Of a DNA stretch of 37,249 nt, positions 9,781 through 13,260 are shown in pieces. Position numbers and translations under genes: made by a program. The stretch is from the NCBI GenBank assembly GCA_945788575.1, contig CALZMR010000015.1, positions 1 through 37,249 on the forward strand, read 5' to 3'. This DNA is from an uncultured Woeseiaceae bacterium (lineage in GTDB: Bacteria > Pseudomonadota > Gammaproteobacteria > Steroidobacterales > Woeseiaceae). Within the stretch, counting starts at the first letter, position 1. Every line of letters begins with the position of its first letter. A model generated the notes under the pieces. The model did no database searches, was not told the origin of the DNA, and saw only the letters and a program-made list of their open reading frames with translations.

Positions 9781-11717
9781 TTACGCCAGCGCTTCCTTCG
9801 CGGCTCCGACGACGTTCTCCGTCGTAAATCCGAAATGTGCGAACAGCTCCGGTGCGGGAGCGGATTCGCCGAACTGGTCGATGCCAATTACCCGCCCATT
9901 GGTCCCGACGTAACGCCACCAGCCTCCGGTAACGCCCGCCTCCACGGCGACCCGCGCCGTGACCGCAGACGGCAGCACGGACTCGCGGTAAGCCTCGTCC
10001 TGTGCATCGAACACGCTGGTGCACGGCATCGACACGACGCGTGCAGCGACGCCCTCTGCTGCCAGCGTTTCGGCAGCCGCCACGGCCAGACTCACTTCGG
10101 AACCGGTCGCGATGAGAATCACGTCGGGATCGCCGTCGCTGTCGCGAAGCACATAGCCACCGCGCGCGATCGCCGCGATCTGCTCTGACGTGCGGTCCTG
10201 ATGCGGAACGCCCTGCCGGGTCAACACGAGGCTTGTCGGCCCGTCCGCCCGCTCGATCGCATCCCGCCAGGCCACAGCCGTCTCGACCGTATCGCTTGGC
10301 CTCCATACGCGCATGTTCGGCATGATGCGCAACGAAGCGACGTGCTCCACGGGCTGGTGCGTCGGACCGTCTTCGCCGAGGCCGATGGAATCGTGGGTGT
10401 AGACGAGAATATTGCGTGCAGCGCCATGCCGTTGCATAGTGCGGTCATGCCGAACTCGCGAACACCGAAATAGATGTAGTTCCCGGAAGCGTCGTCGCCC
10501 GTAATCGGCTCCGAGCCCGAGTGTTTCGTGAGATTTGATCCGGTCAGGTCTGCGGATCCGCCGGCAAGTTCAGGTAGCTTGGGCGCGAACGCGTTCAGCG
10601 CCACGAGCGATGCCTTGCGGGTCGCCATCTGGCCGGCTTCGGCATCGATAGCCGCAATAGCGGCGTCGGCGAACTCGGCCCAGTCTTCGGGCAGCTGCCC
10701 GGCCATTCGCCGCGCGAACTCCGTGGCAAGTTCCGGGTGTGCCTCGGCGTACTTCGCGAACAGCTCGCTCCAGCCGGTCTCATTGACGGCACCGCGCTCG
10801 CGGCCATCCCACGCAGCCGCGATGTTGCCCGGAATCTCGAACGGCGGATGCGACCAGCCAAGCTCGGTGCGGGCGGCTGCGATCTCTTCGGGCCCGAGAG
10901 GTGCTCCGTGCGTCGACGCAGTGCCTTGCTTGTTCGGCGCACCGAAACCGATGACGGTCTTGCAGCAAATCAGCGTCGGACGATCGTCCTGGGCGATGGC
11001 GGTATCGATGGCTGCCTTGATCGCCGCGCTGTCGTGCCCATCGACGTCGGCGATCACCTGCCAGCCATAGGCCTTGAAGCGAGCAACCGTGTCATCCGTG
11101 AACCAGCCGTCGACTTCGCCGTCGATCGAAATGTTGTTGTCGTCGTAGAACGCGATCAGCTTGCCGAGCTTCAGCGTGCCGGCGAGCGAACAGGCTTCGT
11201 GAGAAATGCCTTCCATAAGGCAACCGTCACCGAGGAATACCCAGGTCCGATGGTCGACGACGTCGAATCCGTCGCGATTGAACTGACCCGCCAGCATCTT
11301 CTCGGCGAGCGCCATGCCGACGGCATTGGCAATACCCTGGCCGAGCGGTCCGGTCGTCGTTTCGACCCCGAGACCGGGTTCGTACTCGGGATGCCCTGCC
11401 GTCCGGTAACCCATTTGACGAAAGTTGCGAATCTCGTCCATCGACAGGTCGTAGCCGGTCAGGTGCAACAAGCTGTAAAGGAGCATGGAGCCATGCCCAT
11501 TGGACAGGACGAAGCGGTCGCGGTCGGCCCAGTCGGGGTTGGCCGGATTATGTCTCAAGTAATCGTTCCAGAGGACCTCGGCAATATCCGCCATCCCCAT
11601 TGGCGCCCCGGGATGACCGGAGTTAGCGGCCTGAACCGCGTCCATACTGAGCGCCCGAATGGCGTTTGCGAGGTCCCGGCGAGCTGTTTCGCCGGCGCTC
11701 TTGGCTTGCTGTGACAT
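9781..11717 (-). pseudogene. tkt: Transketolase, disrupted by an out-of-frame internal deletion
   Basis: The N-terminal part runs from ATG 11717 ([15 protein letters not shown]) through residue 434 at 10416. It has SGHPGAPMG, the thiamine-diphosphate motif [29 protein letters not shown], and the catalytic glutamate in GVREFGM. After NGMALH the frame turns to an unrelated tail. The C-terminal part resumes one frame over at about 10416 with [25 protein letters not shown] and runs to the stop at 9781. Compared with E. coli TktA, roughly 29 residues are missing between the halves, including the phenylalanine-rich helix that packs against the cofactor pyrimidine; this corresponds to about 88 nt. 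Neither half should work alone. Whether this is true decay or an assembly fault cannot be told here. Confidence 0.88.
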
Positions 11718-11764
11718 GTGGCTGTTCTTGGTCCCGGCCAGTGGCGGCCGCTTGAATCGTGAAA

Positions 11765-11943
11765 GGCGCCGCGAGGCGGTAAGCCGCAACGGCGCCGCGA
11801 GGCGGTAAGCCGCAACGGCGCCGCGAGGCGGTAAGCCGCAAAGGCGCCGCGAGGCAGTAAGCCGCAACGGCACCGCGAGGCGGTAAGCCGCAACGGCACC
11901 GCGAGGCGGTAAGCCGCAACGGCACCGCTTTGCGGTAGCCGCG
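11765..11943 (-). repeat. 26-bp tandem repeat array forming the tkt 5' leader
   Basis: Six full copies of a 26-bp unit run head to tail from 11765 to 11920 (11765, 11791, 11817, 11843, 11869, 11895), followed by a degenerate seventh copy at 11921-11943. The shared core on the plus strand is GGCGGTAAGCCGC, preceded by GGC(G/A)CCGCGA. Copies differ at very few positions: copy 3 ends AAA rather than AAC, copy 4 has one G-to-A change in the core, and copies 5-7 carry GGCACC where 1-4 carry GGCGCC. On the tkt-sense strand each unit can fold as GCGG-CTTA-CCGC or, alternatively, CCGC-CTC-GCGG. Twenty-six is not a multiple of three, so the array is not coding. It fills most of the 382-nt gap between tkt and metK; the remainder holds promoters and 47 nt before the tkt ATG. 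Confidence 0.93.
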
Positions 11944-11944
11944 C

Positions 11945-11972
11945 ATTCTAAAGGTTTTGCTATAGGGGGCAA
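11945..11972 (-). promoter_or_regulatory. Probable sigma-70-type promoter for tkt
   Basis: On the minus strand TTGCCC (11972-11967, 4 of 6) and TAGAAT (11950-11945, 5 of 6) are spaced by 16 nt. Transcription would begin near 11938, inside the degenerate seventh repeat, so the entire array would be transcribed as an untranslated leader of about 220 nt. Confidence 0.5.
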
Positions 11973-12036
11973 GCTCGGTTCAGTACCTATTGAAACCATC
12001 CCGGATTCGTAACGATTTGAATCACACGTACCACTG

Positions 12037-12067
12037 TTGGTAGACGCCTGCGCCATTGCGGTACAAT
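12037..12067 (+). promoter_or_regulatory. Possible metK promoter
   Basis: TACAAT at 12062-12067 is a good -10 (5 of 6) about 33 nt before the metK ATG. Possible -35 elements are TTGGTA at 12037 with a long 19-nt spacer or TAGACG at 12041 with a short 15-nt spacer; neither is convincing. The resulting leader of about 26 nt is too short for a SAM-sensing riboswitch. Confidence 0.3.
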
Positions 12068-12099
12068 CGCCGGCTGATCCCGCCATACAAGTACAGATA

Positions 12100-13260
12100 A
12101 TGAGTAATGCTTCCCTGTTCACCTCGGAGTCGGTCTCCGAGGGACATCCTGACAAAATTGCCGATCAACTCTCGGACGCGGTCCTCGACGCGATCCTCGA
12201 GGAGGACACCAGCGCCCGCGTCGCCTGCGAAACGATGGTCAAGACCGGCATGGCGCTGGTCGCCGGAGAGATCACCACGTCGGCGTGGGTGGATCTCGAG
12301 GACATCGTTCGTTCGACGATCGTCGGCATCGGCTACAGCGACTCTGAAATGGGCTTTGACGGCCATTCCTGCGCCGTCCTGAACGCGATCGGCAAGCAGT
12401 CGCCGGACATCGCTCAGGGCGTGGACCGCGCAAGCGCCGAAGACCAGGGTGCCGGCGACCAGGGCCTGATGTTCGGATACGCGACCACCGAGACCGATGT
12501 CCTCATGCCCGCTCCGATTACCTATTCACACAGGCTCGTCAAACGTCAGGCGGAAGTGCGCAAGGAAGGAACGCTGCCGTGGCTGCGCCCGGACGCGAAG
12601 AGCCAGGTGACCTTCGTCTACGAGAACGGCAAACCGGTAGCGATCGATGCCGTCGTCCTGTCGACACAGCATCGCGCCGATGTCTCGATGAGCGATCTGC
12701 GTGAAGGCGTCATGGAGGAGATCATCAAGCCGGTACTGCCGACGAACTGGCTGTCCAAGGACACCAAGTACCACATCAACCCGACCGGCCGCTTCGAGAT
12801 CGGCGGACCGATGGGTGACTGCGGTCTGACCGGACGCAAGATCATTGTCGATACCTATGGCGGCACGGCACGCCACGGCGGCGGCGCGTTTTCCGGCAAG
12901 GACCCGTCGAAGGTCGACCGTTCGGCCGCCTACGCATGCCGCTACGTTGCCAAGAATATCGTTGCGGCAGGGCTTGCCGACCGTTGCGAGATTCAGGTGT
13001 CGTACGCCATTGGCGTCGCCGAGCCCACGTCGATCAGCGTCGAGACGTTCGGCACCAGCAAAGTCTCGAACGCGGAACTCACCGCCCTGATACGCGAGAA
13101 TTTCGACCTCAGGCCGTTCGGCATTCTGCGTATGCTCGATCTGCTCAAACCGATCTATCGGCAGACGGCTGCTTACGGCCACTTCGGCCGGGATGACATC
13201 GAACTTTCCTGGGAAAAAACCGACAAGGCCGAGGCGCTCGCCGGCGCCGTGGCCGCCTGA
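12100..13260 (+). CDS. metK: S-adenosylmethionine synthetase
   Basis: A 386-residue methionine adenosyltransferase, making S-adenosylmethionine from methionine and ATP in the cytoplasm. The start [19 protein letters not shown] fits the family; the open frame extends 21 codons upstream but that stretch holds the likely promoter. Visible signatures are EGHPDK near residue 14, the [12 protein letters not shown] hexapeptide region near 117, and the P-loop-like [19 protein letters not shown] near 262. It is followed 34 nt downstream by ahcY, so synthesis of SAM and removal of its by-product S-adenosylhomocysteine are encoded together. It is divergent from tkt. No lesion was seen and the length is normal. 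Confidence 0.98.

Follow-up and report, generated by a model that had tools for sequence, protein, structure and literature searches.

The tkt-metK intergenic region and its repeat array

The window, i.e. the whole analysed stretch of 37,249 nucleotides from an uncultured Woeseiaceae bacterium, carries the divergently oriented genes tkt (transketolase, 9781-11717, minus strand, ATG at 11717-11715) and metK (S-adenosylmethionine synthetase, 12100-13260, plus strand, ATG at 12100). Between them lies a tandem array (11765-11942), for which TRF reported a period of 26, 6.9 copies, 94% match and a score of 293, in agreement with the six near-identical 26-bp units and degenerate seventh described in the first-pass annotation. 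It is by a wide margin the strongest array of the window, lies far above chance level and is unusual for its own genome: when approximately 750 kb of the same assembly was surveyed, only three rows scored higher, a 152-bp repeat present in 2.8 copies and two repeats in open frames of 172-174 codons.

Read in the sense of tkt, the order of elements is TTGCCC, 16 bp, TAGAAT, GC, a 25-nt unit (GCGGCTACCGCAAAGCGGTGCCGTT), six further units, 47 nt and the ATG. The six units have the sequence GCGGCTTACCGCCTCGCGG(T/C)GCC(GTT). The promoter-proximal unit (GCGGCT-ACCGCAAAGCGGTGCCGTT; 11918-11942, minus strand as all the others) differs from them by one deletion and by AAA instead of CTC. Units 2 (11892-11917) and 3 (11866-11891) are of the GCGGT variant, unit 4 (11840-11865) carries the ACTGC and CCTTT variants, and units 5 (11814-11839), 6 (11788-11813) and 7 (11765-11787, ending at GCC) represent the consensus. 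The variants are thus ordered, with GCGGT in the first unit and in the units near the promoter and GCGGC in the distal units, a pattern consistent with tandem duplications that proceeded step by step away from the first hairpin. As in promoter and 5'-UTR minisatellites, near-identical units follow each other head to tail in the regulatory region of one gene, here at a single locus.

The tkt gene encodes transketolase domains; compared with its relatives it lacks about 88 bp near 10415, where the reading frame is interrupted. The relatives carry these additional base pairs between ...GCGCTGCACG and CAATATTCTC (window 10400-10430), where the short similar words GCTGCAC and GCTGCGC flank the site of the deletion. 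The deletion shifts the frame and removes the segment GGxIPYxGTFLTFSDYARNALRMAALM (including GTFLTFSDYARNALRMAALM). The assembly yielded no second transketolase. Since the N-terminal 434 residues are 82-85% identical to the proteins of the relatives and contain no stops, the interruption is either a recent deletion (pseudogene) or an assembly error. Selection on the leader may consequently be relaxed, or the assembly may be imperfect here, which makes it less certain that selection acts on the leader in this particular strain.

The sequence comes from a fragmented metagenome-type assembly of 419 contigs, and the length of the array (178 bp) is close to that of a short read. Together with the 88-bp deletion between similar words in the same gene, this could mean that the array is an artefact or that its copy number is inexact. 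We consider this very improbable: the units can be told apart by variants that follow an order, the junctions with the conserved promoter and with tkt are exact, and the usual assembly error is the collapse of repeats, not their invention. The frame of tkt is open upstream as far as 12155, and an N-terminal extension of the protein through the array was also considered. It was dropped because the tkt proteins of the relatives begin at the same ATG and the unit length of 26 is not divisible by 3.

The tkt promoter and the 5' stem-loop of the relatives

A sigma-70-like promoter on the minus strand (TTGCCC-16-TAGAAT, 11972-11945) adjoins the array. Its -35-like hexamer TTGCCC (11967-11972) occupies the place of CTTGCGG or CTTGATG in related genomes, and its -10-like hexamer TAGAAT (11945-11950) aligns with GAAAAT. 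For comparison the tkt-metK intergenic regions of about 68 relatives from the genus were used, all of which have kept the divergent order of the two genes and the position of the -10 and -35 elements of tkt. Because this position is conserved, transcription of tkt is predicted to start at about 11938, approximately 7 nt past the -10 element and inside the first unit. The array would then be transcribed as part of a leader of about 221 nt. The first-pass annotation had proposed a good -10 element abutting the array and a transcript beginning within it with a leader of about 220 nt, and both proposals agree with the comparison.

The tkt promoter of the relatives is strikingly conserved, consisting of CTTGCGG or CTTGATG, 16-17 bp, GAAAAT (with the variants CAAAAT and GAGAAT) and GCGC-S-GC. 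The four bases following the -10 element are GCGC in 41 of the 68 genomes, so the start region has a G+C-rich discriminator. The divergent metK promoter, whose -10-like element TACAAT is found at 12062-12067 (plus strand), is conserved as well, and the pair of divergent promoters can be recognized across the genus (window 11900-12102 and the approximately 68 relatives). In relatives with a short spacer the metK -10 element (GGGTACAAT) abuts the -35 element of tkt (CTTGATG), and the two promoters nearly overlap. One relative (L067, G080:C13) has a different tandem repeat, 14 bp in three copies (GTTGAAACAGACCA), just upstream of metK in the predicted leader of that gene.

The tkt leaders of the relatives are 41-93 nt long (median 65), compared with 223 nt for the window by the same measure. 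Their folding energy per nucleotide is -0.21 on average and -0.34 at the lowest, compared with -0.53 in the window. The bases that follow the -10 element (GCGC-S-GC) often open a small stem-loop such as TCGC-GAAA-GCGA. A perfect 4-bp stem with a 4-nt loop starting exactly at +7 from the -10 element was found in 12 of the 68 leaders in nine different sequences, among them TCGC-GAAA-GCGA, TCGC-CACG-GCGA, TCGC-TCAA-GCGA and CACG-ATTA-CGTG, whereas 200 shuffles gave at most 4 at any offset; a perfect inverted repeat of at least 4 bp near the 5' end was present in 36 of the 68 (17.1 +/- 3.5 expected), although the genomes share descent and the counts are not independent. One of the nine sequences has a fully different stem. 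The variation of the loop over a constant stem is the pattern of a structural element. The 5' hairpin is not universal, being detected in about half of the relatives.

The first unit of the window (GCGCGGCU-ACCGC-AAA-GCGGU-GCC) shares the lead-in GCGCGGCT with the relatives. Its stem, ACCGC-AAA-GCGGU, has 5 bp and lies one nucleotide further on than the stem of the relatives; GGC and GCC extend it to 8 bp with one bulged U. In the other six units CTC replaces AAA and there is one extra U. On the basis of sequence, folding and position we read the unit which the first-pass annotation called degenerate as the ancestral-type 5'-terminal stem-loop of the relatives (GGC-U-ACCGC-AAA-GCGGU-GCC, 11921-11940, minus strand), and the other six as its putative tandem copies. 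With the promoter placed as described, this stem-loop is predicted to lie at the 5' end of the mRNA. On this reading the array would be a minisatellite that expanded in place from a 5'-terminal hairpin, and neither an inserted element nor a known riboswitch.

Downstream of the array the remaining leader (11718-11764, minus strand) contains a GGCC-loop-GGCC element, as in many relatives, and no clear Shine-Dalgarno sequence. The absence of the latter had been pointed out before; weak Shine-Dalgarno sites are, however, common across the genus. In relatives such as L013, L016, L019 and L057 (minus strand) a second element recurs in the leader before the tkt start, namely GATTCACCATAAGGCC, with small variations, and after it a short hairpin of the form GGCC-loop-GGCC; the CACCATAA part of this element has been lost in the window. 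Another relative (L030) has an imperfect repetition with 22-bp spacing at the same spot as the array, suggesting that the site may be prone to duplication.

Distribution of the repeat unit

When the whole genome was searched with 18 bases of the unit, allowing up to 3 mismatches, near-exact copies were detected only in this array, and matches with 3 mismatches elsewhere occurred at the rate of the reversed control. The unit is thus not present in the many genomic copies characteristic of dispersed palindromic repeats of the REP/BIME type. The array had no real match in the other 72 genomes of the genus that were searched or in a sample of 296 genomes of the order; the weak matches were single chance-like or coding stretches, or glutamate/arginine-rich coding repeats. 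A pattern scan for two tandem core hairpins across 84,980 species genomes yielded seven unrelated loci. The richest of these (L052, 6097-6280, from an uncultured Thiodictyon) shares the 12-base core but was rejected because its 27-bp repeat codes for protein (LRGLPPEER). Nothing was found for the array on plasmids, nor by the pattern scan in viral contigs. Within the genus and order samples searched, the array is therefore no regulatory device shared among relatives. It is probably a local repeat expansion in one species at an otherwise conserved gene start, with a modest effect.

This distribution also bears on a role at the level of DNA. Each unit contains the palindrome GCGG-TAAG-CCGC (imperfect palindrome GCGGTAAGCCGC), and the array lies between divergent promoters, as might be expected of a row of operators for a regulator of tkt and/or metK. 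Against this stand the confinement of the unit to one genomic site, with 3-mismatch matches no commoner than in the reversed control, the lack of a copy at this locus in any relative, and the 26-bp period, which sets successive sites on opposite faces of the helix. We regard such an operator array as highly unlikely.

Predicted folding of the leader and effect of copy number

The leader folds to -118.4 kcal/mol, with a z-score of -2.55 relative to dinucleotide shuffles (2 of 200 as low). A fairer control is provided by arrays of position-permuted units, which have the same letters in a new order. Of these, 8% were as stable as the array; the corresponding values were 3.5% for a single and 2.8% for a double unit. 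The structure is only mildly unusual in this comparison because any GC-rich tandem array folds well. The first-pass annotation had named two observations as jointly contradicting its interpretation, absence of the array from all close relatives and lack of structural signal above shuffled sequence. The array is indeed absent from every close relative, but some structural signal above shuffles is present.

The two exclusive pairings that had been proposed for each unit, GCGG-CTTA-CCGC or CCGC-CTC-GCGG, could be sustained only in that alternative folds are possible. At equilibrium GCGG-CTTA-CCGC is mostly disfavoured, reaching a probability of 0.74 in one unit and 0.01-0.12 in five of the six, ACCGC-CTC-GCGGU reaches 0.79-0.89 in one unit, and long-range pairing between units dominates the ensemble. 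It is probably the longer GGC-U(U)-ACCGC-loop-GCGGU-GCC hairpin (8 bp) that matters biologically, since its first copy occupies the position of the 5' stem-loop of the relatives. No terminator-like site and no U-run was detected in 11650-12150, which makes an intrinsic attenuator in the tkt leader unlikely. The leader had no match in Rfam, either at the gathering threshold or at E values up to 1, and a known riboswitch within Rfam is excluded as the identity of the array.

The dependence of folding on copy number was followed by deleting and adding units in silico. The energy required to open the ribosome-binding region was 8.5-9.7 kcal/mol for 1-11 units and 7.5 kcal/mol for none (relatives: 7.7 +/- 2.9 kcal/mol on average). 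This flat profile indicates that equilibrium folding offers no route from copy number to translation, and it speaks against the earlier suggestion that copy number tunes expression. Arrays of near-identical units, such as this one, are typically prone to slippage, and published precedents are provided by uspA2, as summarized in PMC4679880, and by promoter repeats of Mycobacterium tuberculosis (PMC12817950). A switch in which slippage adds or removes units, with tkt expression tuned by the resulting change of mRNA structure or leader length, would accord with these facts and with the behaviour of the 5' hairpin described below. In view of the constant opening energy, the single genome from which the array is known and the nature of tkt, a housekeeping gene and not a surface antigen, we think such a switch quite unlikely.

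In the fold model the first hairpin competes with pairing to the later units, and its probability varies from 0.00 to 0.88 depending on copy number. With about 6-11 units it alternates between values near 0 for even and about 0.2-0.3 for odd numbers. This predicted alternation is a lead only. It would permit a phase-variable mechanism in which the odd or even number of reiterated stem-loops leaves the 5' end paired or free and slippage by one unit toggles the decay of tkt mRNA, a scheme so speculative that we give it hardly any weight.

Origin and possible function of the array

Our preferred interpretation, which we hold to be somewhat better than an even chance, is that the array is a species-specific minisatellite that arose by in-place tandem duplication of the stem-loop with which the tkt mRNA begins, and that it likely protects the 5' end and lengthens the leader, leaving the ribosome-binding region accessible. 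The ancestral single hairpin at +1 would have persisted as the divergent promoter-proximal unit, followed by six near-identical copies presumably generated by slippage or recombination. Transcribed as the first approximately 175 nt of the tkt leader, the array would fold into a GC-rich ladder made up of hairpins and of helices between units, which may keep the 5' end base-paired and so slow decay initiated by RppH and RNase E. The leader would be lengthened without closing of the ribosome-binding region, and any effect of copy number on expression would be small.

Emory, Bouvet and Belasco reportedly described in 1992 stabilizing stem-loops at the 5' ends of ompA and papA mRNAs. In Helicobacter pylori a stem-loop at +4 to +30 of the vacA mRNA raises its half-life (PMC4843948). 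RNase E prefers accessible 5' ends, and base-paired 5' ends slow RppH/RNase E dependent decay (PMC3997798). In the window, as in the relatives of the species, the hairpin lies at or a few nucleotides from the predicted 5' end of the mRNA, like the stem-loops of ompA, papA and vacA. Those are single hairpins with measured effects on half-life, whereas here about seven repeats are known from sequence. By analogy, the 5' stem-loop of the relatives is placed where it would slow decay from the 5' end. In the window pairing of the 5' end is likely regardless of the partner taken by the first unit, and for this reason retained or stronger 5' protection together with a longer leader appears the most probable outcome.

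The main alternative is that the array is a neutral minisatellite that arose by an accident of replication or recombination in a leader tolerant of it, and that it serves no purpose apart from that of the first hairpin. We consider this possible but not probable. Its occurrence in one species only, the indifference of ribosome-site opening to copy number, a structure just mildly beyond that of permuted arrays and the interruption of the downstream tkt in this assembly would all be expected of a neutral array. What argues against neutrality is the location of the array, exactly at the predicted transcription start of an operon of core metabolism. The leader, short in every other relative examined, gains about 150 nt of strong structure from it, so that the absence of any effect on the mRNA seems unlikely. 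Our best guess for the function is a longer, more structured and decay-resistant 5' end, or none.

No paper joining tandem repeats, a leader, transketolase and metK was found. The earlier statement that no leader of this kind had been described is nevertheless too strong, since copy-variable repeats in 5' UTRs and promoters have been published (PMC4679880, for uspA2 and others; PMC12817950). According to the summary of Attia and Hansen (2006) in the former, the AGAT repeats in the 5' UTR of Moraxella catarrhalis uspA2 vary from 6 to 23 copies between strains and affect expression. Like the present array, they lie in tandem in the mRNA leader, after the promoter and before the start codon; the uspA2 unit has 4 bp, in contrast to a 26-bp hairpin unit seen in one genome. 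The repeats of M. tuberculosis dop, lpdA and cysG, for which variation of copy number is proven, are similar in their minisatellite-length units (about 54-57 bp in cysG and dop) and in lying at promoters of ordinary genes at a single locus each. They are situated upstream of the start and duplicate promoter sequence, whereas our copies lie downstream of the -10 element, in the transcript (PMC12817950). REP/BIME elements and the Bordetella BRE are also GC-rich intergenic repeats with hairpin potential, and BRE can be tandem, but these elements are scattered over the genome, unlike the present unit with its one locus (PMC3110155). The TAACTGA repeats of Beggiatoaceae, proposed to act on translation, are short direct repeats between promoter and start as well; they are unstructured heptamers at 169 loci, in contrast to a structured 26-mer at one (PMC4679880). 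What sets the array apart from these cases, judged from the sequence comparison, is that the unit itself would be the 5' stem-loop of the transcript and that its ancestor can be read in the relatives.

The locus offers a plausible view of how a minisatellite can arise in a leader from a 5' stem-loop found across a lineage; the ancestral element is still recognizable and the copies are ordered. If neither copy number nor 5' pairing alters the life of the tkt mRNA, it is an example of a leader stretched far without consequence. If one of them does, the array would take its place beside the repeats of uspA2 and of M. tuberculosis promoters; it would be a case from a housekeeping operon of metabolism in which the effect is exerted through RNA decay. 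Should the odd/even toggle prove true, the stability of the mRNA of a central-carbon operon would be under the control of a phase-variable switch in its leader.
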